The notes: generated by a model from the sequence alone, not told the origin. A stretch of 43,394 nucleotides of DNA from an uncultured Dehalococcoidia bacterium (GCA_903844685.1 CAIMUM010000152.1:1-43394), one strand, 5' to 3'; counted from the stretch's first letter, positions 1 through 14,099 are shown. Numbers and translations are program-made.

Positions 1-700
1 CGGCATGCGGGTCGCTCTCCAGCAGCACGCGGTCCATAAAGGCCCCCGGGTCCCCCTCGTCGGCGTTGCAGATAACATACTTAGTTTTGCTTTTAGCTTG
101 CGAGCACGCTGCCCACTTGGCTGCCGTGGGAAATCCCGCCCCGCCACGGCCGCGTAGTCCCGACTTTTCAAGCTTCTGTATAATCTGCGCCGGCTTCATC
201 TCCAGCGTACTGGACAACCCCCGGTACCCGCCGCAGGCGGTATATTGATCTATCTCCAGAGGAGAATTGTAGCCGCAGTTGCGCAGCAGCACCCTCACCT
301 GGTGTTTGAACAAGTCGAGCTCGGGGATGTAAACCGCTTCATCACCACCCCCCGCCACCGTACCCAGCGCCAGGTCCAGGCAGGGGTCATCGCCCCTGAC
401 GTAGCCTTCCACCAATTGCGGCACTATCCGCGGCGTGACATGATGGTAACAGACTGAAAAGCCGCCGGGCTTGACGATGACCACCAAAGGCTCGTACGAG
501 CACAACCCCATACAGCCGACCTCCGAGACCCGGGCCTTGCCCTCCAGCCCTGCGATTTCACGCCGGAAAGCCTCAAGGACAGCCATCGAGCCGGCAGCGC
601 GCCCGCAGGTAGCAGTGCCCACTAAAATATGAATGATTTCGCCGTTATATAGGGATTGCCAGTTCTGCCTGGACACATGGTAAATTTTCCTAAAGGTCAT
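1..700 (-). CDS. NuoF/HydB-type NADH-binding flavoprotein subunit (3' end cut off)
   Basis: FMN- and NAD(P)-binding subunit of a soluble hydrogenase, formate dehydrogenase or complex I-like enzyme. The frame starts at ATG 700 and stays open for 233 codons to the window edge, so the C-terminal half is missing. Residues 1-90 form a thioredoxin-like [2Fe-2S] domain with Cys32 (TATCGRAAG), Cys63 and Cys67 (GCMGLC). The FMN-binding region follows, with GRGGAGFPT at 184-192 and [13 protein letters not shown] at 212-224. The N-terminal ferredoxin domain is typical of HydB/HndC subunits and absent from classical complex I NuoF, so a cytoplasmic hydrogenase or NAD-linked dehydrogenase is more likely than complex I. 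It lies 16 bases after the NuoE-type gene and is probably translated with it. The catalytic partner is outside the window. Confidence 0.9.
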
Positions 701-716
701 TAGTGTTAACCTATGC

Positions 717-1196
717 TTAGTCCTTGTGAGCCGACGGGGGATTCAATTCTACCATTACTTCTTCCACCTTTGGAGGCGTCATCTTCGGAAAAACATCCTG
801 CCCGATAGTGACCACAGGGGCAAGGGCGCAGCAGCCTATGCAGGCGACGCGGTCAAGGTCGAATTCGTGGTCTTCCGTTATCCCGCCTACCTCGATTTTT
901 AGTTCACGCGCCACCGCTTCCAGTACCAGTTGGCCGCCGGCCAGGTGGCAGGCTGTGCCCAGGCAAACTCGCACGGGCCTTTTTCCCGGCGGGGTGAAGC
1001 GGAACTGGTTATAAAAGGTTGCCACGCCCCAGACCGTTGCTGAAGACATATCGAGGAATTTTGCCACCTCAAGCATGGCTTCATTGGAAAGATATCCCTC
1101 CCGGGATTGTATTTCCTGTAATATCGCTATCAGGTAGCGCGGATGGCGGTGGTTATGGTTCAGAATTGACGAAAGATCCGATTCCTTTGTATTCAT
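717..1196 (-). CDS. NuoE/HydA-type thioredoxin-like [2Fe-2S] subunit
   Basis: 159 residues, the usual length of the NuoE/HndA (24 kDa) family. It relays electrons between the NuoF-type FMN site and the rest of the complex. The N-terminal helical part (about 1-70) contains the conserved [13 protein letters not shown] stretch. The [2Fe-2S] ligands are Cys78, Cys83, Cys119 and Cys123, in CLGTAC and CIGCC, with the family spacing. Cys122 is an extra neighbour. The next gene encodes the NuoF partner, 16 bases away. Upstream are a palindromic repeat and acsC, so the pair probably belongs to the same transcript as acsC. This suggests that NAD(P)H-linked redox chemistry is expressed together with the C1 pathway, which is an inference from position only. 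Confidence 0.92.
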
Positions 1197-1260: not shown

Positions 1261-2628
1261 TTATCCTTTCCAGCTTTTGACCAGCGCCGGCAAATAGGCG
1301 GGAATCTCGTTGGCATCGCCCGGGCCGACTATTATCTGCCAGTCGGGCAGGGCCTCGCTGAGCTCGTTGCGTATGCGGGCGACCTTACCGGGTATGACCA
1401 GCCGCCTGTGATTGACCATTCCCTCGACGCCGCATTTCCTGATGAAGGGGGCGATGTTGTCCCCGCTGAACTTGCCGGCCGCCCAGGCGGTAAGCACGCC
1501 CAGTCCACCGGACTCCTTGACGCACAGCCAGGCAGGCACTTTACTGGCCTCGACCTCGGAGGCAACGATGAAATAGGTCAGCGCCCAGTTGGTGGTTATC
1601 AGCACCGGCGAGCCGGCATTCGGGTTGTTGATGGGATAGACCTTTTCCTCCATGGCCATAGGGATGCGCGGGTCGGTGTATATATTCAGCCTCTGCACCA
1701 GCAGAGGCAGGAGTGTGTGCTCATCGATATCTGAGAGGACGATAACGGCGGCATATTTGGGTATAAACATCGCGGCCAGCAGCATCTCGCGCCGCTTATC
1801 GGCAGTCATGAAGCAGGGGAAGGCGACGGTGGGATAGCCCAGCGCCCTGAAACCCTGCTTCAGTGCCGCCCTGCGTATCAGTGTCTGGTCGCGCACGGCC
1901 GACTGCAGGTCCTTCGAGCCCGGGTCCAGCAGGACGTCCTCGATGCCCGCCTCCTTGAGCCGGCTGGTCAGGTGCACCAGCGATTCAACACCGGCCCCTT
2001 TAACGGCTACCACGGCCGGGTTTTGCTTCACTGCGCTGATGACTTTCTCCAGGTTTTGCGCGGTGACGGGGTAAAGAACAGGCTTCCTCCCCTCGCATAA
2101 GGCGTGCGCGTTGAGAAGGGTATCCGTGTCTTCGCAAATAAGCATCAGCGGGCAGTCCGCCGCGGTAAGCGCTTTCTTAACCATCGCCCCGTATTTCGCA
2201 GGGTCGCCCGATTTATACTGCAGGGCCAGCAGGTCAGCCCTCAGCGTCTTGCCAACCCAGCTGAAATGCAGTTCCCTTAACTTCCTGATCTTGTCCTCGA
2301 CTACCTCGCCAAGTTCATCGTCCGCAATAAGCACACCTATGCCGGGCTGATGCACGAAGGTCTTCTCGTGACGGTAGAGCACGGTTTCATCGCCCACTAC
2401 CAGCGCACAGGCACCCCTGCCGATAGTGACGGGCCTGATGGGCGGGGCCAGCGCGTCCTCCAGTTCCCTGCTGACCTCAGGCGAGATATAGGGACACTTC
2501 TCAACAGCAATGCCGCCCGATGCCAGCTTCATGGCAAAGGCGAAGCAGGTGGGCAGGCCACATTCCTTGCAGTTCTTCTTGCCGCCCTCCGGCAGCCGCT
2601 TGACTATTTCCGTGCCTTTGATCGCCAA
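1261..2628 (-). CDS. acsC: Corrinoid iron-sulfur protein, large subunit
   Basis: Large subunit (CdhE/gamma) of the corrinoid iron-sulfur protein. It carries the cobamide that shuttles a methyl group between methyltetrahydrofolate (via AcsE) and the acetyl-CoA synthase A-cluster. 455 residues matches the family. The N-terminal [4Fe-4S] domain has Cys20-x2-Cys23-x4-Cys28-x16-Cys45, the spacing of the known corrinoid protein. The central part is a TIM-barrel-like region and the C-terminal third is the cobalamin-binding region. A good ribosome site (AAGGAG) lies about 7 bases before the ATG. The gene follows acsB after a 214-base gap that holds a pair of palindromic repeats, and precedes the NuoE/NuoF pair. 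AcsD, its partner, is encoded at 6260-7165. Confidence 0.95.
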   Translation of the reverse strand: MAIKGTEIVKRLPEGGKKNCKECGLPTCFAFAMKLASGGIAVEKCPYISPEVSRELEDALAPPIRPVTIGRGACALVVGDETVLYRHEKTFVHQPGIGVLIADDELGEVVEDKIRKLRELHFSWVGKTLRADLLALQYKSGDPAKYGAMVKKALTAADCPLMLICEDTDTLLNAHALCEGRKPVLYPVTAQNLEKVISAVKQNPAVVAVKGAGVESLVHLTSRLKEAGIEDVLLDPGSKDLQSAVRDQTLIRRAALKQGFRALGYPTVAFPCFMTADKRREMLLAAMFIPKYAAVIVLSDIDEHTLLPLLVQRLNIYTDPRIPMAMEEKVYPINNPNAGSPVLITTNWALTYFIVASEVEASKVPAWLCVKESGGLGVLTAWAAGKFSGDNIAPFIRKCGVEGMVNHRRLVIPGKVARIRNELSEALPDWQIIVGPGDANEIPAYLPALVKSWKG

Positions 2629-2842: not shown

Positions 2843-4072
2843 TTACACTGGGAGTTTTACCTCACCTTTGACCCAGGGATGGCCGGCGCGGTCGAGGAAA
2901 GCAACCAGCTCATCAACATTAGTTACATCGTTCTCCGTGGCTATTTTTCCATGCAAATCCATGGGGCAGGCGTCCCTGTACATCTCCTGTATTACCCGCG
3001 GCATCCAGACGATGCGGTACCAGCCGCCGTCCGCCTTGAGGAAGCTGGGGGAGCGCAGGTACTCCAGCGCAATGCCCAGGAAACCCTCAACCTGCCGTCC
3101 CCCGCTGGTATCCCCGGCCATCTCGGTGAAGGGCGACCCGATCACTGTGTCTCCCTCGAAATCGCGGTTAACGATGCCGAAGGCGTCCGCCTCGGGTATG
3201 TAAAAACAGATAGCCTGGAAGCAGCCGCAGGAGGTATGCGGGTAGCCGAAGGCGCTGTGCAAGAAGACCCTGTCGTAAGTGCCCATGGACTTCTCCAGAG
3301 CCAGCCTATCGGCGCCCCGGTACTCTCCCCTCACCGGGTCAATGATATCGCCCTTGGGCACGGCCTGGATGGGCCCCTCGGGGTCCATCTGGTAGGCGGC
3401 CTTTCCGTCGAACCAGTTGATGGCGCCGCAGTTGGCGATGCGCTCAGGTGTAATACAGCAGATATGGGTGGGAGCGAAGCTCTGGCAGAGGGCGCAACTG
3501 TAAAACTCCTCCACGTCGGCCTCGCGCAGGCCGCGTATCTTCTCGTCGCGCGAACGGTAAACCTCCACGGCTTTAGGCAACAACTCCTCAATTTTAACCG
3601 GGTCGGTTATAAAGGTGACCTGTATCTTCTCAATGATATCTATCTCGGAAGTGTAAAGGAATATCAATATCTCGCCCAGCGACCTCAGGGATTTCAGCCC
3701 CTTGCCGAAGGATGCCTTGTTCAGCCGCATCCAGACGTCCTGGCGCTGGTTCATATGGTAAAAGCCCTCTATATAGTTCAGGTAAAGGTGCAGCCGGCGC
3801 TCCAGGACGGGCTCGATATCCCGTTCCAGCCTTGCCCCGGCTACGTCCACAATCAAGGCGATGGGCTGGCTACTGCCCTCCGGGAGAACGTCAATGTCCG
3901 GCCCGATGACCTCCACCTTCTCGTGTGTGACACCGTCAGGGGGTTTAATGGAGACCAGCTCAAATTTGGTGCGCACGTTGGGGCCACCGAACTCCACGCG
4001 CATGTCGGCCTTGCGGATGACCTCGCCTTCGTACTGTGGACCGATGTCTACCGGGAATATTCCGTCAGCCAT
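2843..4072 (-). CDS. acsB: Acetyl-CoA synthase catalytic subunit (CdhC-length AcsB)
   Basis: Makes or cleaves acetyl-CoA at the nickel-iron-sulfur A-cluster, using CO, CoA and the methyl group from the corrinoid protein. The [4Fe-4S] part of the A-cluster is bound by Cys193, Cys196, Cys205 and Cys215; these offsets (3, 12 and 22) match the known AcsB ligands. The nickel site is the Cys-Gly-Cys motif at 282-284 (SCGCFQA). At 409 residues it lacks the roughly 300-residue N-terminal domain of acetogen AcsB that docks CODH, and so resembles archaeal CdhC. ATG 4072 follows a GGGAG ribosome site at about 5 bases. A promoter and dyad lie just upstream at 4125-4166, so it can be transcribed apart from the upstream genes. 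All A-cluster ligands are intact, so catalysis is expected. Confidence 0.94.
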   Translation of the reverse strand: MADGIFPVDIGPQYEGEVIRKADMRVEFGGPNVRTKFELVSIKPPDGVTHEKVEVIGPDIDVLPEGSSQPIALIVDVAGARLERDIEPVLERRLHLYLNYIEGFYHMNQRQDVWMRLNKASFGKGLKSLRSLGEILIFLYTSEIDIIEKIQVTFITDPVKIEELLPKAVEVYRSRDEKIRGLREADVEEFYSCALCQSFAPTHICCITPERIANCGAINWFDGKAAYQMDPEGPIQAVPKGDIIDPVRGEYRGADRLALEKSMGTYDRVFLHSAFGYPHTSCGCFQAICFYIPEADAFGIVNRDFEGDTVIGSPFTEMAGDTSGGRQVEGFLGIALEYLRSPSFLKADGGWYRIVWMPRVIQEMYRDACPMDLHGKIATENDVTNVDELVAFLDRAGHPWVKGEVKLPV

Positions 4073-4124: not shown

Positions 4125-4166
4125 ATCCGTATAAACGGATCATACCCTAATGCGTTCCCGCGTCAA
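4125..4166 (-). promoter_or_regulatory. Promoter with overlapping dyad before acsB
   Basis: On the minus strand, TTGACG (4166-4161), 16 bases and TATGAT (4144-4139) form a good sigma70-type promoter. A perfect dyad, ATCCGT-TTAT-ACGGAT (4140-4125), overlaps the -10 box and the expected start site, the place a repressor would bind. A second TATAAT follows at 4124-4119. The -35 box overlaps the stop codon of the cdhA-like gene. Promoter function and operator role are inferred from sequence only. Confidence 0.55.
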
Positions 4167-6250
4167 TGCACCACATCGTCGAGCGTAACCTGCGAGCGGT
4201 AGGTGCCGACCAGGGTGGGAAGGGACAGCACCGGCTTCTCCTGCCAGCCGCTCTCACCAAGCTGCGCCTGCAATTCCTTCTTGAAGAAGATGGGTATATC
4301 CGAAGCCCTTCTGATAAACAGATGGGCGTCAGCGGGCAACTTGCCGAAATACTGCCTGTGCAGGCCAATGTAATGGGTAAGCTTGGTGGCCCTGCCCTGC
4401 GGTGTATCGTTCTTGCGCATGCATAATTTGGCCAGCGCCACGATAACTGCGCCCTTATCGGCCAGCAGGTTGACCAGGTGCTCGGGGGATGGTTCGCCCG
4501 TATCCACAACTTGCTTAGAGCGGCCGTCCATAACGCTCCAATCGGTTTCGCCCGGCTTGCTGAGGTAGAGCCTTCCGTATTTAATGCAGCGCGGGCCGAC
4601 GATGACCGGTATGCCCAGCCGGTTGCAGCCGGTGGCCAGGGCTAATTCCTCCTCGCCGCAGGCGCCCCAGGCCAGCCCGCAGGCGCCCACCCGGTTGAGT
4701 ATATAGTCCGCCACAACCTCGTAATTAGCCCTCAGCGGCAGAGCAGCGAAGATGCTGGCGATCTTTATAGCGGCGCCGCTGATATGCGCGGAGGAGACGC
4801 CCGGACCCATATTTATCACGCCGCCGGCATCGAAGTCAGGTGGGTACCTCTCATAGATCGACTTCCCCTCATTATCCGTCTTGAGCGCAGCGGCGATAGC
4901 CGAGTCCCCGGCCAGCACTACGATGTATTTGCGTTTAGCGAACTCCTCGGCTATATCGGCGATATCGCCGGGTGAACCCGGGTAATTAGAACCTCCCACG
5001 ATGGCAATAACCCCCGGGATGGTGCCCAGCACCAGCGGCGCTCCTACTTTCCTTATCTCGGTATCCATGACCGGTCCGCGGCCTACCCGCATCTTGCCCG
5101 CTTCATGCTGGCCAGAACTTTCCGGCGGCGGCGCCTTGCTGCGGGAGGCCGAGAGCTTAAGCGCAGCCTCCACAGCTACGGCGGCGGCTTTGCTGGGGTC
5201 GGGCAGCAGTATACTTTTCTCCCTGAGCAGTTCAATTAAAATCTCCTCGGTATTATCAGATGATATGTCCTCCAGGCCACATGCCGTACCGGCATCGGTG
5301 GCTATGAAAGCCGCCCCGGCCGCCCGGGTTTCGGACAATAAATCTGTCAACAGGTTACCCCCTCCGCACATCACGACGTCCGCGATGCCACTGCGCAGGA
5401 CAAAGGGTAACGCTGAAAGCGGTCCGGCTATTTTGGCCGTGGGGCAATAGCGCACCAGGTCATGGGCAACCGGACCCATACCAACTACTTCAATCTTGCC
5501 CTCCAATCCACTGTGCCTGAGGTAATCCACCAGGCAGACGGCAGAGACCGTGTCATCGCCTACCAGCAGGATAACCGGCTTCTTCGTATCCACCGCTGCC
5601 AATCCTACATCAATCAGCGCGGTATCTGCCTTAGAAGAGGGGAAAGCGAAGCCGGTGATGGCCGCCAGGTCTGCGGCTTCCATCACAGTGTGGGTCAGCA
5701 TCGAGGCATGCATGGCCTTGGATTCCAAATCTGAAACCGCCGCTTCAAAACCTGTATTAGCGGAGGCCAGCAGCAAGGCAAGCTGATCCTCGATGTAACA
5801 TAATATCCTTTCCAGGTCGCCCAGGGACGCAGGCTTTATCCCCAGCACCGTCCTGATATGCGGCGCCTCTATACCGATCTTATCACCCAAATCTACAGGC
5901 AACTCCCGGCCTTTAACCTCCACCAGGTAATCGATGAGCCTGCGCGCCTGTGCCAGTATTTTCGCCAGGCCTTCGCAGCAAGTCCGCAGCGTAAGCCGCG
6001 CTTGCATAGCCGATGAATCCACTCCACAGGAACCCCTGCGGCCTTCTGAGAGATCGCATTCCCCATACGTGCAGAGGCTACATTTGTCCGTGACCGGGAC
6101 GTAAAACGGTTTCCAGGTCTGCAGGAGCCGACGGTCCCAGTTCCTCAGTTCCAGGATGCCGGGCAGGGGCGTATGCCCGACCGGTTCCCAGCTATCGCCG
6201 GCGCGGATAAAGTCATTTGCCTCCCTCGTCTGCCTCTCGTTCCTTGCCAC
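4163..6250 (-). CDS. Degenerate CODH alpha-subunit (CdhA-like) protein lacking C-cluster ligands
   Basis: 695 residues aligning along its length with archaeal-type CdhA. The N-terminal cluster motif is kept: Cys57-x2-Cys60-x4-Cys65-x9-Cys75 (CSLCTYGECDL then GRRGSCG). Compared with CODH motifs recalled from the family, every C-cluster ligand is replaced: the His of the GHN motif is Asp232; the GLCC cysteine lies in GMGP (257-260); the next cysteine is Asn299; the VGC cysteine is Gly420; the SGCAA cysteine is Asp449; the GSCVS cysteine is Gly484. The histidine relay near residues 90-105 is also gone. So are the two ferredoxin-like clusters of archaeal CdhA, which would explain the shorter length. 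It starts at GTG 6250 with AGGAGG upstream and lies 9 bases after acsD. It is probably a structural or electron-transfer partner of AcsB, not a CO oxidase. The loss of ligands is inferred without a computed alignment. Confidence 0.85.
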   Translation of the reverse strand: MARNERQTREANDFIRAGDSWEPVGHTPLPGILELRNWDRRLLQTWKPFYVPVTDKCSLCTYGECDLSEGRRGSCGVDSSAMQARLTLRTCCEGLAKILAQARRLIDYLVEVKGRELPVDLGDKIGIEAPHIRTVLGIKPASLGDLERILCYIEDQLALLLASANTGFEAAVSDLESKAMHASMLTHTVMEAADLAAITGFAFPSSKADTALIDVGLAAVDTKKPVILLVGDDTVSAVCLVDYLRHSGLEGKIEVVGMGPVAHDLVRYCPTAKIAGPLSALPFVLRSGIADVVMCGGGNLLTDLLSETRAAGAAFIATDAGTACGLEDISSDNTEEILIELLREKSILLPDPSKAAAVAVEAALKLSASRSKAPPPESSGQHEAGKMRVGRGPVMDTEIRKVGAPLVLGTIPGVIAIVGGSNYPGSPGDIADIAEEFAKRKYIVVLAGDSAIAAALKTDNEGKSIYERYPPDFDAGGVINMGPGVSSAHISGAAIKIASIFAALPLRANYEVVADYILNRVGACGLAWGACGEEELALATGCNRLGIPVIVGPRCIKYGRLYLSKPGETDWSVMDGRSKQVVDTGEPSPEHLVNLLADKGAVIVALAKLCMRKNDTPQGRATKLTHYIGLHRQYFGKLPADAHLFIRRASDIPIFFKKELQAQLGESGWQEKPVLSLPTLVGTYRSQVTLDDVVH

Positions 6251-6259
6251 AGCAGCCTC

Positions 6260-7165
6260 CTATAATTTGCCTTCGATGGCTTCCTTGAGTAGCCTGCAAT
6301 TATCCGGATGGCGCAGCACCAGTATATCGGCGCCGGCCAGCAGCAGGCTTATGGCCGTGATGCTTTCCCAGAGCATGCCCTGTTCAGCATCGGCCCTGGC
6401 CTGGTTGATCTTCCAGCACTCACGGCCAAGGTCGGCGATGATGGGCATCTGCATGGCCATGTCGCCGTAGACCACCCCGACCTGGCGGCTGCGCTCCATG
6501 ATAGTGAAGCTGTATTCCATACCGTAACCCAGCGCCGAGCTGAGCGGGTCGATGACTATCTTCTCGGGAGGTAGCTGTTTGAGCAGCTTAACGTTGAGCT
6601 CTTTCTCAAGATTTATATCTATGGGCGTTTGGGCAATGATGCAATGCCCGTTCTCCGCTACCGCGCGGGCTATAGCTTCGTAATTCTCCTTGACCACCGG
6701 GCCTATCAGCAGGTTGTCTCCTTTGCATGCTTCAGCCACTGCGGTCAGAACCTCGATATCTTTCTTATCGTCACCACAACCATAAACCACCAGGGGCGCA
6801 TCCAATCCCCCTGTAATCTCCTTCACCAGCGCAGCAGCTTCTGCTGCAGGCTTGTTGGACCCCTGGGGATCGGTGCCTTCCAGGTGCAGGCAGACCAGGT
6901 CGGCTCCCATCTCCATGCACCTTTTCGCCCATTTTAGCGGGTCGTTCACAACATCCCTGAACGGTCCTGCCACATGCCCGGCCCAGCCGGCAGCGCCGTT
7001 GTCGTCCACCTCGAGCGCAACCACGCAGCGGTTGGCGGCAGCACCCTCAAAATAGTGCAGCGGCAGGATATTCTGTCCCCCGATCCTGACCGCTTTCCGC
7101 CCGCTGCCGATGGTGACCTCTTTCAACCTGCCTGTATATGTTTCCAGGGGCGCCTTGTATTGCAT
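6260..7165 (-). CDS. acsD: Corrinoid iron-sulfur protein, small subunit
   Basis: Small (delta, CdhD) subunit of the corrinoid iron-sulfur protein, forming a heterodimer with AcsC and helping to cap the cobamide. 301 residues is close to the usual bacterial length. It is a TIM-barrel protein of the AcsD/CdhD family: the N-terminal part contains GGQNILPLHYFEG and an acidic VALEVDD strand, and later segments include LVCLHLEGTDP and VIDPLSSALGYG, all recognisable for the family. It sits 13 bases after acsE and 9 bases before the cdhA-like gene, so the three are one translationally spaced operon. Its partner acsC is separated from it by two genes and an internal promoter, an unusual order for two subunits needed in equal amounts. 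Confidence 0.93.
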   Translation of the reverse strand: MQYKAPLETYTGRLKEVTIGSGRKAVRIGGQNILPLHYFEGAAANRCVVALEVDDNGAAGWAGHVAGPFRDVVNDPLKWAKRCMEMGADLVCLHLEGTDPQGSNKPAAEAAALVKEITGGLDAPLVVYGCGDDKKDIEVLTAVAEACKGDNLLIGPVVKENYEAIARAVAENGHCIIAQTPIDINLEKELNVKLLKQLPPEKIVIDPLSSALGYGMEYSFTIMERSRQVGVVYGDMAMQMPIIADLGRECWKINQARADAEQGMLWESITAISLLLAGADILVLRHPDNCRLLKEAIEGKL

Positions 7166-7178
7166 AAACCTACCTCAA

Positions 7179-8057
7179 TTAAGATTCCAACCAGGCGTGG
7201 GAATAGAGCGCATCACCCATCAGTACCCTTGCCGTCTTAACATAATCTCTGGCTTTTTCCGGCAACCCGGATGTTTCAACCTGCTCGCCTTCCATCACCC
7301 CGTGTATAAGTTCCCTGATATCCTTAATTCCACCTCTGTTGAGCCCTACCAGTTCGGGATCGAGGACATCCGCGATAGCCGAATACAGGCCATACTTTTC
7401 CAGCATCACCATATAGGTGCGGTTAAGTATGCCTCGCAGGTGGGCCGGCGTACCGTTTGAAACGTTGGAGAGGCCGACCACCGACCTGACTCCCGGCAGC
7501 AGGTCCGCCAATATCCTGACAAATTCCAGCGCCTCGCGCACCTGCTTCTGGTCGGCGCTGACCGGCAGAATAATCGGGTCAACAAATATGTCCTCATTAC
7601 TGATACCAAGGCCGTTGGCATAGGCAACGGTTTCCATAATACTTTCTACACGGGCATCGACGTCGGGCGGGCAACCCAGGTCGGTGATAACCGAGATAAT
7701 GACCTGCGTATTGTACTTGACCGCCAGCGGCATCATGAGCTCTTTGCTCTCGGCCTTGCCGGACGCAGAATTCAATATCGGCCGTGTTTTACACAGCGCG
7801 AGCCCTGCCTCCATGGCAGCCGGGTTCATCGTATCCAGTGAAATGGGCAAATCGGTCACTTCCTGCACCGTATTGACCAGCCAGGAGCCGACCTCTTCGG
7901 GGTCCCTGCGGGCAGGGCCCAGGTTCAGGTCGAGGTAATCAGCACCGGCTTGAGCCTGTGCCGTGGCCAGCGCCTGGATGGCGGCGGCGTCCCTGTTCCT
8001 GACAGCCTCACTGACCACCTTGGAGATAATGTGGATGTTCTCGCCAATTAAAATCAT
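7179..8057 (-). CDS. acsE: Methyltetrahydrofolate:corrinoid iron-sulfur protein methyltransferase
   Basis: Transfers the methyl group between N5-methyltetrahydrofolate and the cobalt of AcsCD, linking folate C1 metabolism to acetyl-CoA chemistry. 292 residues, slightly longer than the roughly 262 of the Moorella enzyme. It belongs to the pterin-binding TIM-barrel family: GENIHIIS at the N-terminus, DLNLGPARRDPEE, the SLDT strand, and GLSNVSNG, which holds the asparagine known to assist methyl transfer. It is the first gene of the minus-strand C1 operon. A promoter with an extended -10 lies about 30 bases upstream. No clear ribosome site is visible before ATG 8057. Confidence 0.94.
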   Translation of the reverse strand: MILIGENIHIISKVVSEAVRNRDAAAIQALATAQAQAGADYLDLNLGPARRDPEEVGSWLVNTVQEVTDLPISLDTMNPAAMEAGLALCKTRPILNSASGKAESKELMMPLAVKYNTQVIISVITDLGCPPDVDARVESIMETVAYANGLGISNEDIFVDPIILPVSADQKQVREALEFVRILADLLPGVRSVVGLSNVSNGTPAHLRGILNRTYMVMLEKYGLYSAIADVLDPELVGLNRGGIKDIRELIHGVMEGEQVETSGLPEKARDYVKTARVLMGDALYSHAWLES

Positions 8058-8087
8058 GTCGTGCGGAAAGACGGTTAAATCAGGGGA

Positions 8088-8117
8088 ATTCTATCATCGA
8101 TTGCCGCGCAGGGGCAA
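8088..8117 (-). promoter_or_regulatory. Promoter of the acsE-acsD-cdhA-like operon
   Basis: On the minus strand, TTGCCC (8117-8112), 18 bases and TAGAAT (8093-8088), with an extended -10 (TGATAGAAT). The expected start near 8081 leaves a leader of about 24 bases before acsE. Only one candidate of this quality is seen in the acsE-rnhA gap. Confidence 0.5.
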
Positions 8118-8153
8118 GGAAAAAAATCCCGGCCGGCAAGCCCTGAAATAGCG

Positions 8154-8159
8154 TATAAT
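8154..8159 (+). promoter_or_regulatory. Possible -10 box giving leaderless rnhA mRNA
   Basis: A perfect TATAAT ends 5 bases before ATG 8165. If used, transcription would start at about the A of the start codon, and no Shine-Dalgarno sequence is seen. No good -35 hexamer is visible, so this is only a candidate. Confidence 0.35.
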
Positions 8160-8164
8160 TGGCC

Positions 8165-8632
8165 ATGGTTGCCAGGGACAACATAATCATCTATTGCGAT
8201 GGAGCCTGCTCGGGCAACCAATACCTCTCCAACGCCGGCGGATGGGGCGCTATCCTCAAACACGGAGACCTGTTGAAGGAGATCCACGGAGGGGAGCTTA
8301 ACACTACCAACCAGCGCATGGAGCTTACCGCCTGCATTAAGGCCCTGGAACAACTCAAGTCAGGCAAATATGACGTCGCAGTCTATACCGACAGCGCCTA
8401 CCTGGTAAATTGTATACATAATAAATGGTATACCGCCTGGCGGAAGAACGGCTGGAAGAACGCCGCGAAAAAGCCTGTTGAGAACCGCGGCCTGTGGGAG
8501 AGGCTGCTCAAGCTCTTATCGTTGTACACGGTGGTTTTTATCAAGGTGGCGGGACATTCCGGGAATAAGTTGAACGAGCGGGCCGACGAACTGGCCCGGC
8601 AGGGCATCGCGAAGGTAAAAAAAGCCGTCTGA
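8165..8632 (+). CDS. rnhA: Ribonuclease HI
   Basis: Cuts the RNA strand of RNA-DNA hybrids, removing primers and R-loops during replication. 155 residues from ATG 8165, the normal bacterial RNase HI length; a TTG at 8159 would add two residues. The four metal-binding acidic residues are present: Asp12 (YCDGACSGN), Glu53 (NQRMELTA), Asp76 (VYTDSAYL) and Asp141 (NERADELA), with the catalytic-loop His131 in AGHSGN. It stands alone on the plus strand, divergent from acsE, with gyrB 159 bases downstream. A TATAAT directly before the start codon and the lack of a ribosome site suggest a leaderless transcript. Confidence 0.95.
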   Translation: MVARDNIIIYCDGACSGNQYLSNAGGWGAILKHGDLLKEIHGGELNTTNQRMELTACIKALEQLKSGKYDVAVYTDSAYLVNCIHNKWYTAWRKNGWKNAAKKPVENRGLWERLLKLLSLYTVVFIKVAGHSGNKLNERADELARQGIAKVKKAV

Positions 8633-8659
8633 ACTGATGCATTTCCCTCCCAAATATGC

Positions 8660-8728
8660 TATAATGTTTCTTGAAATTGCAAGTACTTGTATGCGCTGAT
8701 TAAGCAAACACAATATATTGTGATGCTT
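8660..8728 (+). promoter_or_regulatory. gyrB upstream region: -10 box and dyad sequences
   Basis: The 159-base gap between rnhA and gyrB holds a TATAAT at 8660-8665 and three symmetric sequences: CTTG-N6-CAAG (8670-8683), the perfect palindrome CAAGTACTTG (8680-8689), and CACAATATATTGTG (8709-8722), flanked by AAGCA (8702-8706) and TGCTT (8724-8728). The last could form an mRNA stem or an operator in the gyrB leader. No strong -35 box is recognised. Regulatory use, for example supercoiling-dependent control of gyrase, is a guess. Confidence 0.4.
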
Positions 8729-8791
8729 GTCTTTGATTACTCGCTTAAGGGCGGGCATAGGACGGGCGTAATCCAGCGGAAGTAATATAGC

Positions 8792-10711
8792 ATGACCCCT
8801 GAACAAATCAACCATCCCAACAATGGCGATTACAACGCAGAAAATATCCGCGTGCTCGACGGGTTGGAAGCGGTGCGCATGCGCCCCGGCATGTACATCG
8901 GCGATACCGGCAAGGACGGCCTGCACCACCTGGTGTACGAGATCGTTTACAACAGCATTGACGAGGCTATGGCCGGCTGCTGCGACCTGATACAGGTCAT
9001 AGTACATGCCGACAATTCCCTCACCGTTATCGACAACGGCCGCGGCATACCGGTAGATATACACCCCGAAAAGGGCGTCTCCGCCCTTGAGGTTGTGATG
9101 ACCACCCTGCACGCCGGCGGCAAGTTCGGCGACGGCGCCTACAGTGTTTCCTCAGGTTTGCACGGCGTGGGCGCTTCGGTCGTCAGCGCGCTGTCAGCCT
9201 GGATGCGCGCCGAAGTCAGGCGCAATGGCAAAATCTGGCGGCAGGATTACAAGGTTGGCATACGTCAGGACGATGTGAAAGCGGTGGGTAAGACCGACCA
9301 TACAGGCACCACGATCACTTTTATGGCCGACCCAGATATCTTCGGAGAGATCAGCTACGATTTTAACCTGCTAACAGAGCGCCTGCGGGAGTTGGCCTTC
9401 CTCAACAAGGGCGTGGAGATAAGCCTCAGGGACGAGCGGAATGACCGCGAGGCCACCTATTTCTTCGAGGGCGGGATAGCCAGCCTGGTGCGGCGCATCA
9501 ACAAGAATCGCCAGGTGCTGGACAAATCCATCTATATCAGCGGCAGGGTAAACAGCACCGCCGTCGAGATCGCCATACAGTACAATGATGGCTACTCGGA
9601 GAACGTTACGGCCTTTGCCAACTGCGTCAACACCAAGGAAGGCGGCACACACATGACCGGGTTCCGCGCTGCGCTGACCCGCGTGCTGAACGACTACGCC
9701 CGCAAGAACAAGTACCTCAAGGATAATGACCCTAACCTATCAGGTGAAGATATCCGCGACGGCTTGACCGCCGTAATCAGCGTCAAGGTGGGGTCTCCCC
9801 AATTCGAAGGCCAGACCAAGGCCAAGCTGGGGAACCCGGAAGTGAAAGGACAGGTAGAGTCGGTGGCTAGCGACGGGCTGAACGAGTACCTGGAAAAGCA
9901 CCCCGACGAGGGCAAATCGATAATCGACAAGTGCCTGCTGGCAGCCAAGGCCCGTGAAGCAGCGCGCAAGGCGCGCGACCTCATCCTCAAAAAGACAGGG
10001 CTTGAGTTCGGCACGCTGCCAGGCAAGCTTGCCGACTGCGCCAGCAACAACCCGAAGGACTGCGAACTTTACATAGTGGAAGGCGATTCCGCGGGCGGTT
10101 CAGCCAAGCAGGGGCGCGACCGCAATTTCCAGGCCATCCTGCCCCTCAAAGGTAAAATACTCAATGTGGAGAAAGCGGCCAAGGACAAGATATTTGACCA
10201 CGAAGAGATCAGGGCGCTGATCACAGCACTGGGCACCGGCATCAGCGAGGCCTACGACTATTCCAAGCTGCGCTACCACCAGATAATCATCATGACTGAT
10301 GCTGACGTGGACGGCGCGCATATCCGCACCCTTCTGCTGACATTCTTTTACCGGAATATGGCCGACCTGATACAAAACGGCCATCTCTTCATCGCCCAAC
10401 CTCCTCTCTACAGGTTATCAGCCGGCAAACAACAGCACTGGGTCTATTCCGACGCTGAGAAGGATGCCAAGATGGCCGGTCTGAAGAACAGCAAGGTGGA
10501 AATCCAGCGCTATAAAGGTCTCGGCGAGATGAGCCCCGGACAACTCTGGGATACTACCATGAATCCCGCTACCCGTACACTTTTAAAAGTGCAGGTCGAC
10601 GACGCCATGAAAGCCGACGAGATATTCCATATATTGATGGGCAGCGATGTCCCGCCGCGCAAATCCTTTATCCAGGCACATGCCCGCAGCGTCAAAAACC
10701 TGGATATTTAG
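8792..10711 (+). CDS. gyrB: DNA gyrase subunit B
   Basis: ATPase subunit of DNA gyrase, which introduces negative supercoils together with GyrA. 639 residues, typical of the short GyrB form. The GHKL ATPase domain shows Glu50 and Asn54 (YEIVYNSIDEAMAG) and the ATP lid with GLHGVGASVVSAL. The transducer follows. The TOPRIM domain begins at ELYIVEGDSAGGSA, with metal-binding residues in MTDADVDGAHIRTLL. The C-terminus has RYKGLGEMSPGQLWDTTM. ATG 8792 is preceded by a weak CGGAAG site. gyrA lies about 10 kb away, so the two are not in one operon. Next to dnaA and rnhA it supports an origin-proximal location. Confidence 0.97.
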   Translation: MTPEQINHPNNGDYNAENIRVLDGLEAVRMRPGMYIGDTGKDGLHHLVYEIVYNSIDEAMAGCCDLIQVIVHADNSLTVIDNGRGIPVDIHPEKGVSALEVVMTTLHAGGKFGDGAYSVSSGLHGVGASVVSALSAWMRAEVRRNGKIWRQDYKVGIRQDDVKAVGKTDHTGTTITFMADPDIFGEISYDFNLLTERLRELAFLNKGVEISLRDERNDREATYFFEGGIASLVRRINKNRQVLDKSIYISGRVNSTAVEIAIQYNDGYSENVTAFANCVNTKEGGTHMTGFRAALTRVLNDYARKNKYLKDNDPNLSGEDIRDGLTAVISVKVGSPQFEGQTKAKLGNPEVKGQVESVASDGLNEYLEKHPDEGKSIIDKCLLAAKAREAARKARDLILKKTGLEFGTLPGKLADCASNNPKDCELYIVEGDSAGGSAKQGRDRNFQAILPLKGKILNVEKAAKDKIFDHEEIRALITALGTGISEAYDYSKLRYHQIIIMTDADVDGAHIRTLLLTFFYRNMADLIQNGHLFIAQPPLYRLSAGKQQHWVYSDAEKDAKMAGLKNSKVEIQRYKGLGEMSPGQLWDTTMNPATRTLLKVQVDDAMKADEIFHILMGSDVPPRKSFIQAHARSVKNLDI

Positions 10712-10742
10712 CGGCGCTCCGCATCAGAAAACTTTCCCGATA

Positions 10743-11345
10743 TCAGGCTATATACAATTTGTTCTGGTTAATATATTCGCCGACAGCGTCGGGCACCAGG
10801 TAGCGCACCGATTGCCCGCCCGCAACTCTCTGTCTGATACCGGTTGAACTAACCCCCAGATAAGGTTCATCAAGGACCATTATTCTTTCAGCAATGCCAG
10901 GCATAGACTTTTCCAACTTCGTTATATCGGGAGCCTGGAAGCCCGGACGGGGAAAGGCTACAACCGTGGCCATCCTGGAGATACGGTAAGGGGCCTTCCA
11001 GGCCGTCAGTTCGGCCACGCTATCCCAGCCTAAAAGCAGGAACAGTTGCGTATCGTAGCCAAGCTCCCCCCACAGTTGTTCAAGCGTATCGACCGTATAG
11101 GTCGGGCCGGGACGTTCTACCTCAATAAGCGAAAGGCTGAAAGCCGGGTTTGACGATATGGCCAGCTTGACCATCCCCACCCTGTGCTCCGCCCCGCTAA
11201 CCATATGTTCCGATTTCATCCAGGGGTTACCCGCCGGTATGAAGATCACCCGGTCGAGCGCAAGGCGGGTCCTGGCTTCCTCGGCAATGATCAGGTGCGC
11301 GACATGGATGGGGTCGAAGGTGCCGCCCATAATCCCGACTTTCAT
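10743..11345 (-). CDS. nadD: Nicotinate-nucleotide adenylyltransferase
   Basis: Adenylates nicotinate mononucleotide to deamido-NAD, a late step of NAD synthesis. I use ATG 11345 (200 residues), because the protein then begins with the family's MKVGIMGGTFDPIHVAH nucleotide-binding motif. A longer frame upstream would lie wholly inside obgE. The second signature, SSTGIRQRV, is near the C-terminus. The start codon is separated from the obgE stop by one base (TGA-T-ATG), so translation is probably coupled. obgE-nadD neighbourhoods are common in bacteria. Gene end faces the 3' end of gyrB with a 31-base gap and no obvious terminator. Confidence 0.94.
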   Translation of the reverse strand: MKVGIMGGTFDPIHVAHLIIAEEARTRLALDRVIFIPAGNPWMKSEHMVSGAEHRVGMVKLAISSNPAFSLSLIEVERPGPTYTVDTLEQLWGELGYDTQLFLLLGWDSVAELTAWKAPYRISRMATVVAFPRPGFQAPDITKLEKSMPGIAERIMVLDEPYLGVSSTGIRQRVAGGQSVRYLVPDAVGEYINQNKLYIA

Positions 11346-11346
11346 A

Positions 11347-12408
11347 TCAATCGCGCAGGTCCACCGGCCTCGGCCTAAAAACCATCTCCGGACCCATCTC
11401 CACAATCGATCGTTTTTTTTGTTCACTGACAAGTTTATGTACAGCCGAGATCAGTTCCGGAATGCCCGTATTCAGCGCCGCGGAAATCGCATAAACCGGT
11501 AAACCCGTATCTTCCAGCTTCTCTTTAATAGCAGCAAGCTCTACGGCGTCTTCAATCAGGTCTGTCTTATTAATTGCGATTATGCTGCTTTTCTCCGCCA
11601 GTTGCAGGTCGAATGCCTTTATTTCTTCCTTCAACCGGACAAATTCCTCTGCTATGCCGGACGAGCCTGCATCCAGCAGGTAAACCAGCACTGCCGCTCT
11701 TTCTGCGTGGACCAGGAAGCTGTTGCCAAAACCTTTTCCCTGTCCCGACCCTTTAACTATGGCTGGCAGCTCTGCCCAGATATATTTTTGTGTGCCATCA
11801 TCCACAACACCAAGAACAGGATACTTTGTTGTAAAGGGATAGTCCGCAATCTGTGGACGAGCTGCGGACACGGCTGATAACAGTGTAGACTTGCCGCTGT
11901 TGGGATATCCAATAATGCAAACATCTGTTATCAATTTCATCCTTAATGTTATGTCAAACTGCTCGCCTTCCTCACCCGGTTGGAATATCTCCGGAGCTTT
12001 ACGGGTTGCAGTGGCATAATGCACATTGCCCTTACCGCCCCTTCCACCTTTCGCCACCTGCAATTTTTTCCCCTTGCCCTGCAGGTCTGCCACCAGTTGT
12101 TCCTCCCCGTCCTTCTTTACATAAGCGGCGGTCCCTACCGGCACTTTTATCAACAGGTCTACCCCGTTAATGCCATGTTTCTTGTTAGTCCCACCCCTTT
12201 CCCCATTGCCGGCTTTAAAGATAAGCCTGTGTTTATACGCTGCGAGGTCCTGCATATCTGCGTCGGCAACCAGATATATATCACCTCCCCTGCCTCCATC
12301 GCCACCATCAGGTCCTCCAAAGGGCAAAAACTTCTCACGCCTGAAACTGGCAAGCCCGTTGCCTCCGTTGCCAGCCCTGACCTTTATTTCTACATTATCA
12401 ACAAACAT
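11347..12408 (-). CDS. obgE: Obg-family GTPase with altered switch II motif
   Basis: GTPase associated with the large ribosomal subunit and with stringent response and DNA replication control. 353 residues: glycine-rich Obg fold (1-158, including GGPDGGDGGRGG), then the G domain with G1 GYPNSGKS (167-174), G2 PFTTKYP, G4 NKTD (280-283) and G5 ISA. The family's optional C-terminal domain is absent. The unusual point is G3: Obg proteins normally have D-x-P-G (ADIPGLIEGA), whereas this one reads AELPAIVKG, with Glu213 and Ala216. Both the magnesium-coordinating Asp and the gamma-phosphate-sensing Gly are changed, so hydrolysis or switching may differ. The neighbouring G motifs look normal, so this is not a general decay. 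Confidence 0.93.
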   Translation of the reverse strand: MFVDNVEIKVRAGNGGNGLASFRREKFLPFGGPDGGDGGRGGDIYLVADADMQDLAAYKHRLIFKAGNGERGGTNKKHGINGVDLLIKVPVGTAAYVKKDGEEQLVADLQGKGKKLQVAKGGRGGKGNVHYATATRKAPEIFQPGEEGEQFDITLRMKLITDVCIIGYPNSGKSTLLSAVSAARPQIADYPFTTKYPVLGVVDDGTQKYIWAELPAIVKGSGQGKGFGNSFLVHAERAAVLVYLLDAGSSGIAEEFVRLKEEIKAFDLQLAEKSSIIAINKTDLIEDAVELAAIKEKLEDTGLPVYAISAALNTGIPELISAVHKLVSEQKKRSIVEMGPEMVFRPRPVDLRD

Positions 12409-12600
12409 ATTCTATTTAATAATCCATAGTCTATATATTTTGAATGGTGATATCATCATACTAATTATAAGCTGGTTGACGTTGTGGATGATAGTTGCGG
12501 CGAGTACGATACCTGATTTTATACGTATTGAAGGATGTTTAAAGAGGGGAAGGAGTTATCAACAATGAGATGGGATTTTTGCACAAATTATCAGCAGCGC
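12395..12600. other. Candidate replication origin (oriC) between obgE and dnaA
   Basis: A 192-base, visibly AT-rich gap (plus the first codons of obgE) containing several 9-mers close to the DnaA box TTATNCACA: TTATCAACA at 12395-12403 and again at 12556-12564, TGTGGATGA at 12483-12491 (reverse strand), TTTTGCACA at 12577-12585 and TTATCAGCA at 12588-12596. The stretch 12409-12470 is especially AT-rich and could be the unwinding element. It lies next to dnaA, with gyrB, rnhA and gyrA nearby, and the prevailing gene strand changes from minus to plus close to here. None of the boxes is a perfect consensus. Confidence 0.5.
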
Positions 12601-13962
12601 TTAATTTGATCCGCGAGATTTTAACAGCGACCGGATATCTTCGATGGATTTGCTGAGCTGAGAGTCCGTGGAAATAGACGCCGTAATTTTTTCGCAACCG
12701 TGGATGACCGTTGAATGGTCCCTGTTACCGAGTATTTTGCCTATCTCTGACAGGTTTGTATGATTTTGCTGGCGTAGGATGTACATAACAACATGGCGCG
12801 CCCGCGAAGTCTCCCGGTCCCTCTTCTTACCCGTTATGTCATCAGGTGACAGGGAATAGTAGTCCGCCACCGCGTTGATGATTTGATTGGCCGGGAAATA
12901 ACCGCTGTTCTGGTTGGACACGGAAATCATATCGTTAAGCAACTTACGGGCAGTGCTGAGGTCTATGGGTGAACTGTCCAACCGCGCATAGGAAGCCAGC
13001 CGTATGAGCGCGCCCTCAAGTTCCCTTACATTGCTGTGGAAACTGGTTGCCAGGAAGTTGAGGATGGATGAGTCGAAGCTGGCTTTCGACAGCCGCGATT
13101 TCGACTCGAGAATAGACAGCCTTGTTTTATGGTCAGGAGCGTGCATATCGGCTACCAGTCCGCCTTCCAGACGGGAACGCAGGTGGATCTTGAGTGATTC
13201 GATCTCTTTGGGAGGGCGGTCGCACGATATGACAACCTGACGGTTATCTTCCAGGAAGTCGGTGAGTATGTGTAAAAAACTTTCCTGGGTCTGGGTCTTG
13301 CCGCTGAAAAACTGGATATCATCCAGCAATAAGACACTGGCCTCGTTGAATTTATCGCGGAATTCCTCATTTTTATTATTGCGGATAGACATAATGAACT
13401 CGTTGGTGAACTGCTCGGCACTCATGTAAATGGCGCATATTTCACGTGCCGCCAGTTCCTGGCCGATAGCGTGCAGCAGATGGGTCTTGCCGATGCCGGT
13501 GCCACCGTAAATGAAAAGAGGGTTAAATAACTCGCCGGGATTTCCCGAGATCTCCACCGCGGCCGTATAGGCGAGGCGGCTGCATTCACCTGAGACGAAA
13601 GTATTGAAAGTATACCGGGAGTTCAAGGAGCTGCTTTTACCCGACGGTTTTCGCATTTTCAGGCTGACACCGCCGTCGGCGACCGGCAGAGGTTTTGTCG
13701 CTGATACAGAGGGAGCGGACGCAAGTACCTGGAACGCGACATCGACGTTCTGCCCGGTGATGGAGCAAAGTATTCTGCAGACCGTGGAAAGCAGCCGGCT
13801 CTTCAGCCATTCCGCGATGAAAGCGGTAGGAACGGCAACGGTGAAAATACCTTTAACATAGGCTATTCCCCGCGAATCCTTCAGCCAGGTGTCATAATTA
13901 GCTTTACTAACCTGGAGTTGCAGCTCACCCAGAGCCGCCTCCCATATCTTATCAGCTTGCAT
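12601..13962 (-). CDS. dnaA: Chromosomal replication initiator protein DnaA
   Basis: AAA+ protein that binds DnaA boxes and melts oriC. I choose ATG 13962 (453 residues, starting MQADKIWEAAL), because domain I normally begins this way and AAGAGG lies just upstream; an in-frame ATG 51 bases earlier is possible. Domain I spans about 1-80 and a variable linker about 85-115. The AAA+ domain has Walker A GGTGIGKTH (153-161) and Walker B LLLDDIQFF. Domain IV ends with the DnaA signature, including SRARHVVMYILR and GNRDHSTVIHGCEKI. A TATAAT at 13983-13978 is a possible -10 box. The 3' end abuts the candidate origin. Confidence 0.97.
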   Translation of the reverse strand: MQADKIWEAALGELQLQVSKANYDTWLKDSRGIAYVKGIFTVAVPTAFIAEWLKSRLLSTVCRILCSITGQNVDVAFQVLASAPSVSATKPLPVADGGVSLKMRKPSGKSSSLNSRYTFNTFVSGECSRLAYTAAVEISGNPGELFNPLFIYGGTGIGKTHLLHAIGQELAAREICAIYMSAEQFTNEFIMSIRNNKNEEFRDKFNEASVLLLDDIQFFSGKTQTQESFLHILTDFLEDNRQVVISCDRPPKEIESLKIHLRSRLEGGLVADMHAPDHKTRLSILESKSRLSKASFDSSILNFLATSFHSNVRELEGALIRLASYARLDSSPIDLSTARKLLNDMISVSNQNSGYFPANQIINAVADYYSLSPDDITGKKRDRETSRARHVVMYILRQQNHTNLSEIGKILGNRDHSTVIHGCEKITASISTDSQLSKSIEDIRSLLKSRGSN

Positions 13963-14099
13963 TTGCCTCTTATCCGTATTATATTTTGTCGGCGGGTACC
14001 GTAAAAAGGGCAAAAACTTCCCCCATAGGAACGAAAAATGCCGACTTTCAGTTTAGGTTGCTTAAAAAAATCGGTTGCTGGGAATGTCTGCCCGGTTTA

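Follow-up and report, generated by a model that had tools for sequence, protein, structure and literature searches.

Results and Discussion

Carbon monoxide dehydrogenase (CODH) and acetyl-CoA synthase (ACS) are usually regarded as inseparable partners that stand at the root of carbon fixation. The locus presented here raises the question of why an ACS operon should keep a CODH α-subunit, CdhA, in which every ligand of the C-cluster has been replaced. It is located in a window of 43,394 nucleotides, the whole stretch of DNA that was analysed, from an uncultured Dehalococcoidia bacterium (GCA_903844685.1, CAIMUM010000152.1:1-43394). The evidence presented below suggests that the protein probably began as a CO dehydrogenase and now serves acetyl-CoA synthase as a partner subunit with no redox function. 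In the literature searched, a CdhA lacking all six C-cluster ligands appears to be new, while CdhA groups with two ligands lost have already been described (Inoue 2019, PMC6344411).

Identity and fold

The gene occupies positions 4163..6250 of the minus strand, with a GTG start and a stop codon at 4163-4165, and codes for 695 amino acid residues. The protein scores 752.5 bits against the NCBIfam model TIGR00314 (cdhA), which is below the equivalog cut-off of 781.3 bits, and also matches PF03063. The nearest solved structures are 8riu, 9c0q and 3cf4, the CdhA proteins of Ca. Ethanoperedens, M. thermophila and M. barkeri, respectively. The AlphaFold single-chain model (pLDDT 77, pTM 0.85) superimposes on solved CdhA structures with TM values of 0.88-0.89, and the kept fold proposed from the sequence is thus borne out. 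In the phylogenetic tree the protein is nested within canonical CdhA of the class Dehalococcoidia. It is therefore a member of the CdhA family (the α-subunit of CODH/ACS) by descent, fold and place in the operon. The chain is shorter than that of canonical CdhA (about 768 residues) because a ferredoxin insert of about 90 residues has been deleted.

Lost and retained metal sites

The C-cluster ligand positions were assigned by alignment to M. barkeri CdhA and 32 canonical relatives, and correspond to residues 232, 260, 299, 420, 449 and 484 of the window protein. The canonical series His, Cys, Cys, Cys, Cys, Cys is replaced by Asp, Pro, Asn, Gly, Asp, Gly, leaving none of the six ligands and no cysteine at any of these positions. 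Asp232 (5555..5557, minus strand, as for all codons given here) stands where M. barkeri has the His ligand H250. The five cysteines Cys1 to Cys5 are replaced by Pro260 (5471..5473), Asn299 (5354..5356), Gly420 (4991..4993), Asp449 (4904..4906) and Gly484 (4799..4801), respectively. A misalignment hiding the ligands was ruled out, as the flanking motifs align to solved CdhA and to the 32 canonical relatives. The alignment also has no cysteine at the positions equivalent to the Fe-S-O cluster ligands of the hybrid cluster protein and CODH-V type.

The losses extend to the acid-base catalysts and to most of the other clusters. In canonical relatives the His relay helix has the sequence SAHGGHARH; here it is AKILAQARR. 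The helix of the catalytic Lys, canonically SQKAA, reads GEEEL. The B-cluster motif Cys57/60/65/75 is retained (6026..6082), while positions 54 and 58, which complete the D-cluster motif in canonical CdhA, are occupied by Thr and Ser. The deleted insert carries two ferredoxin-like clusters, E and F, in canonical CdhA; at its site there is only a short linker of residues 370-386 (5093..5143). The four B-cluster cysteines are the only cluster cysteines remaining. The sequence-only reading had proposed the loss of all six ligands, of the His relay and of both ferredoxin-like clusters, together with retention of Cys57/60/65/75, and the alignment agrees on each point; it gave no strand for the gene, which is the minus strand. 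Its further claim that the CO/CO2 site has been removed is supported by the loss of the ligands, the relay and the catalytic Lys. By descent the protein is a CdhA; by the features tested it is not a CODH.

It is important to compare this protein with its known relatives. Archaeal-type CdhA (Inoue clade A; 3cf4, 9c0q-t, 8riu) shares the orthologous place, the fold, the operon with CdhC, CdhD and CdhE, the B-cluster motif and the residues of the CO alcove discussed below, but has the C-cluster ligands, the D-cluster, the E/F domain, CdhB and the His/Lys acid-base catalysts, all of which are missing here. The bacterial, ACS-linked CdhA groups A-4 (D,P,C,C,C,C) and A-6 (N,S,C,C,C,C) have lost two ligands, and their CODH/ACS activity remained to be examined (Inoue 2019, PMC6344411). 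These groups keep four C-cluster cysteines and the E/F clusters, while the window protein keeps no ligand. CODH-V of C. hydrogenoformans (CooS-V, group D-1; 7b7q) is likewise a CODH-family protein with neither C-cluster nor CODH activity; however, it keeps cysteines, binds an Fe-S-O hybrid cluster and does not act as a partner of ACS. A recent survey filtered out sequences lacking C-cluster ligands. Our literature search, which was incomplete, gave no account of a CdhA lacking all six ligands, and neither its intermediates nor the 445-residue form described below turned up in it.

Distribution and stepwise loss

Among the 84 genomes examined from the order of the window, 11 contain a CdhA without C-cluster ligands (C-less CdhA) and 41 others have a CdhA match. 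The expectation that the same substitutions would be found in relatives is thus confirmed, with ten genomes in addition to that of the window. The carriers are uncultured Dehalococcoidia metagenome-assembled genomes (MAGs), with named copies from Lake Pavin, Lake Alinen, a fen and other sites. An assembly artefact or chimera was ruled out by the recurrence in 11 genomes from several lakes and sites with intact frames.

When the columns of the ligands and the relay were left out of the alignment, the tree grouped the C-less proteins in a single clade with support of 100/100. Its sister is the protein of locus L059 (support 99/92), with the ligand series N,S,C,C,C,C. This A-6-like protein has lost just two of the six ligands; its His relay is partly broken, and its D-cluster cysteines and CdhB are kept. 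Within the C-less clade, genera g2 and g13 still have the ferredoxin insert, with one cysteine missing from the second cluster. The insert is deleted in g1, the genus of the window, and in g7; one single deletion common to both has an AU p of 0.057. These intermediates show that the loss was stepwise: the His and the first Cys were lost first, then all ligands and the D-cluster, and finally the E/F domain decayed and was deleted. The ligand positions themselves differ inside the clade, position 232 being D, N, S or C, position 299 N or S, position 420 G or S, and position 484 G or D.

A second reduced protein is found in genome G123, which belongs to another family of the same order and is 94% complete. 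This CdhA of 445 residues (L100:5023-6360, G123:C19) is located between acsD and cdhC. It has lost the B/D-cluster motif, Rossmann fold 1, the ferredoxin insert and the Cys4 region, and retains one of the six C-cluster ligands together with the equivalents of R400, V407 and F501 of the window protein. Neither CdhB nor CooS was found in the G123 genome. A common origin with the C-less clade was rejected (AU p 0.003), the branch of G123 being long. The model of the mini-CdhA (pLDDT 69) matches CdhA structures best. Outside the CdhA family, the A1 domain of acetogen ACS comes next, with TM 0.70-0.73 when normalised to chains that consist of A1 only, and all CooS-type CODHs rank below it. No further case of this kind was found among 400 genomes of the phylum. 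As judged from its sequence, the G123 protein is an independent reduction towards an A1-like subunit.

Operon

The window CdhA is the third gene of a minus-strand operon. In the order of transcription, the genes code for an AcsE-like methyl-THF:CFeSP methyltransferase (7179..8057), AcsD/CdhD, the small (δ) subunit of the corrinoid Fe-S protein (CFeSP; 6260..7165), CdhA, CdhC (2843..4072), AcsC/CdhE, the large (γ) CFeSP subunit (1261..2628), a NuoE-like [2Fe-2S] subunit at the operon end (717..1196), and a NuoF-like flavoprotein whose gene runs off the contig, its first part being at 2..700. The methyltransferase, both CFeSP subunits and the NuoE-like subunit were assigned by profile matches. 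In relatives L043 and L063 a CooC-like ATPase comes after the NuoF-like gene, and in L043, the MAG from Lake Alinen, an isochorismatase-family gene (L043:6431-7072) is found between acsE and acsD.

In canonical relatives from the family of the window, genes for a DUF166 protein and CdhB (the ε-subunit) stand between cdhA and cdhC. In the C-less operon both have been deleted, and cdhA directly adjoins cdhC. No CdhB was found in the 11 C-less genomes. Among the 41 remaining genomes with a match to CdhA it is present in 37, and of the four cases without it three are fragments and one is G123. The DUF166 protein, present at L050:10330-11025 between cdhA and cdhB, was lost along with the C-cluster and may serve the maturation of the C-cluster or of CdhA. 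Locus L101, with two ligands lost, lacks DUF166 at that place and retains CdhB. The C-less operon has remained at the ancestral chromosomal site of the canonical one, beside obgE-nadD and gyrB, a neighbourhood also seen at the canonical locus L050. In the window (7179-14013) the operon adjoins gyrB, nadD, obgE and dnaA, near the likely replication origin.

Selection on the C-less proteins

The pairwise dN/dS of whole C-less CdhA proteins is about 0.07-0.14 and that of the neighbouring CdhC about 0.10, and none of the copies in the 11 genomes has an internal stop codon. The protein is under purifying selection, and a pseudogene is ruled out by these values. The earlier argument that an intact length speaks against decay stands as to decay, with dN/dS near 0.1, but not as to length, which is reduced. 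The constraint is unevenly distributed. In the C-terminal half (Rossmann fold 2 and the C-terminus) dN/dS is 0.03-0.08, compared with 0.02-0.06 in canonical CdhA, while in the N-terminal half it is 0.08-0.17 compared with 0.04-0.06, a two- to three-fold relaxation. The relaxed part is that which formerly held the His ligand, Cys1 and Cys2. Between C-less and canonical CdhA, helix αA is 85% and the segment of residues 504-530 is 90% identical, and the relay helix and Rossmann fold 1 are 39-42% identical. The pattern indicates that the ACS-facing side has been kept and the CO-oxidising side lost.

The ACS partner and the proposed role

The ACS subunit of M. thermophila lacks the A1 domain of acetogen ACS, and Rossmann fold 2 of CODH docks in its place (Biester 2024, PMC11474084). 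A hydrogen bond links CdhA Arg500 in this complex to a glycine of the A-cluster, and the residues that make up the CO alcove and channel gate are Leu504, Val507 and Phe601 (Biester 2024, PMC11474084). The literature evidence for this role of Rossmann fold 2 comes from M. thermophila only. The alignment shows that the window protein retains the equivalents of three of these residues, Arg400 (5051..5053), Val407 (5030..5032) and Phe501 (4748..4750), which are invariant across the C-less clade. Leu504 corresponds to Ala404, and Ala is also found in most canonical relatives. The three residues are conserved in active CdhA too, and their retention therefore indicates a constraint on this face rather than a new role. 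The partner CdhC is an archaeal-type ACS β-subunit of 409 residues with no A1 domain. Its A-cluster CxxC, Cys, Cys and CGC motifs align to chain E of 9c0s (9c0s_E) and the alcove Phe is kept, in agreement with the intact A-cluster read earlier from the sequence.

The opposite arrangement is found in relatives whose ACS has its own A1 domain, in which no CdhA was detected. G048 and G280, from the same order, have ACS proteins of 733 and 743 residues, G083 from a Dehalogenimonas-like family has one of 727 residues, and none of the three has a PF03063 protein. Such a distribution would be expected if the A1 function is what has to be preserved. The acetogen A1 domain (the N-terminal domain of AcsB; 6yua, 6x5k) is a homologous Rossmann domain with the same alcove role over the A-cluster, but it is fused to ACS, while here the role would be played by a separate, former CODH subunit.

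These observations allow us to propose that the window CdhA works like an A1 domain. CdhC, having no A1, would borrow Rossmann fold 2 of CODH as docking surface and CO alcove: the fold would dock onto CdhC, hydrogen-bond the A-cluster and form an alcove that opens and closes. The C-cluster, the His/Lys relay, the D- and E/F-cluster wiring and the ε-subunit could then be lost with the A1-like role retained. CdhA itself could not be deleted because CdhC would still need this surface, and the present protein would wall off and gate the A-cluster in the closed state. Methyl groups would pass between methyl-THF, CFeSP and the A-cluster, and acetyl-CoA would be formed or split by the complex while CO is taken up or given off as a free gas, with no conversion to CO2. 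The sequence-only reading offered no reason for keeping a dead CODH; the alcove role supplies one. The proposal draws on the ligand loss, the alcove retention, the selection, the co-loss of CdhB, the intermediates, the second reduction and a search that found no true Ni-CODH, all of them read from sequence; from this we infer docking on CdhC, activity of the complex and the involvement of free CO. The models are of single chains (pLDDT 77 for the window protein and 69 for G123), and the contact between CdhA and CdhC is a predicted one.

Other possible roles

Selection also acts on the N-terminal half with its B-cluster motif, for which a pure alcove role has no obvious need. It is possible, though improbable, that the former C-cluster cavity has been rebuilt as a new active or cofactor site, which would make the protein a new enzyme and not a scaffold. 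Residues fixed only in the C-less clade line the former C-cluster loops (D233, G259, V261, G296-G298, I452, G532 and E533-E535), C239, C531 and the B-cluster motif are invariant in the clade, and the helix 531-545 is 100% identical within it and 46% identical to canonical CdhA. A site composed of D233, GGG296-298, C531, E533-E535 and perhaps C239 might conceivably, at similarly low probability, handle CO, or some other ligand, as it moves towards or away from the A-cluster. If so, the complex would be a new kind of ACS complex and not an ACS on a dead scaffold. However, the ligand positions themselves vary within the clade, no gene for a substrate or partner has been added to the operon, and the independent G123 protein has dispensed with the greater part of this region, while the parts that face ACS remain. 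The invariant C-less-specific residues D233, GGG296-298, C531 and E533-E535 nevertheless suggest that something has also been rebuilt.

It is unlikely that a separate CODH makes CO for the ACS, giving a full Wood-Ljungdahl pathway by two uncoupled enzymes. CooS-family proteins are found in the window's own genome and in five other C-less genomes; in the family of the window they occur in 6 of 10 C-less genomes and 0 of 11 genomes with canonical CdhA (Fisher p 0.004, uncorrected for relatedness). The methyl-branch genes are also mostly present: MTHFR-family proteins occur in all 11 C-less genomes and FTHFS in 7 of 11. However, every CooS protein long enough to be judged has Glu in place of Cys295. 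One such gene is present in the own genome (G000:C36:9132-11015, L066:9129-11033), called anaerobic CODH by profile with 719 bits. Its best PDB match is 7b7q (CODH-V), and the Glu at Cys295 (IEAGQE), Tyr96 at the acid-base His and the type III D-cluster motif are features of Inoue group D-1. CODH-V contains an Fe-S-O cluster and lacks both the C-cluster and CODH activity. The search for a canonical cooS in the rest of the genome thus gave no six-ligand type but one CODH-V-like protein, and rescue by a canonical cooS in this genome is improbable. In five C-less genomes, four of them 92-98% complete, no CooS was found, and no true Ni-CODH was detected in any of these MAGs, that of the window being 77.8% complete, though one may have been missed in any single MAG. 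A protein of 279 residues with 4Fe-4S dicluster motifs precedes the CODH-V-like gene. Most C-less genomes of family f1 and genome G418 also contain a distinct high-scoring MTHFR-family protein (E about 1e-85; for example, G000:C186:4303-5151), for which the best score in the canonical-CdhA genomes searched is about 1e-49.

There is little reason to assign the protein to electron transfer, in which the B-cluster would relay electrons from NuoEF-like subunits for the reductive activation of the A-cluster or of the corrinoid protein. The B-cluster cysteines are invariant in the clade and NuoE and NuoF remain in the operon. The D-, E- and F-clusters are the known wires into and out of CODH, however, and the protein has lost them; NuoEF is found just as much next to canonical CdhA, and the G123 version has no B-cluster motif at all. 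Decay with no role after the loss of CODH, which the stepwise loss of ligands, clusters and domains and the relaxed N-terminal half might suggest, is highly improbable in view of the low dN/dS, the frames free of stops, a C-terminal half constrained about as in active enzymes, the new residues fixed across the clade and the operon place kept.

Relation to Dehalococcoides mccartyi

The sequence-only reading had connected the locus with the incomplete Wood-Ljungdahl pathway of D. mccartyi. Its fold, dead site, intact A-cluster, selection and shared substitutions all held, but this connection did not: the carriers are uncultured Dehalococcoidia MAGs, and Dehalococcoidaceae-like genomes, relatives of D. 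mccartyi, have an A1-bearing ACS and no CdhA, while the window CdhC has no A1. According to the account of Zhuang 2014 given in PMC7005905 and PMC6113397, D. mccartyi has no CODH, acsE or metF, and its ACS runs without CODH in the cleavage direction, with release of CO. The two organisms are similar, on this account, in having ACS in cells that appear to lack a working CODH, with CO released from acetyl-CoA cleavage in D. mccartyi. They differ in that D. mccartyi is described there as having no CODH at all and no acsE or metF, while the window organism has acsE, MTHFR genes and a gutted CdhA. The occurrence of MTHFR and FTHFS noted above therefore indicates that a methyl branch exists, unlike in D. 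mccartyi. As far as this account goes, the precedent shows that a CODH-less ACS can cleave acetyl-CoA and release CO.

Biological meaning

In the proposed partner-subunit role, the chemistry of CODH has been removed and the protein kept, and in a second lineage the protein has been pared back in the direction of the part that builds the ACS CO pocket in methanogens. This is independent support for the structural claim of 2024 that Rossmann fold 2 of CODH stands in for the A1 domain of ACS, and suggests how A1 and CODH may be related. It is important to note for annotation that such genomes would score as having CdhA and CooS, although, from their sequences, neither appears able to turn over CO. 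The locus may offer a CODH-free, two-subunit ACS in which free CO would be used or released, and thus a natural test of what ACS needs from its partner.
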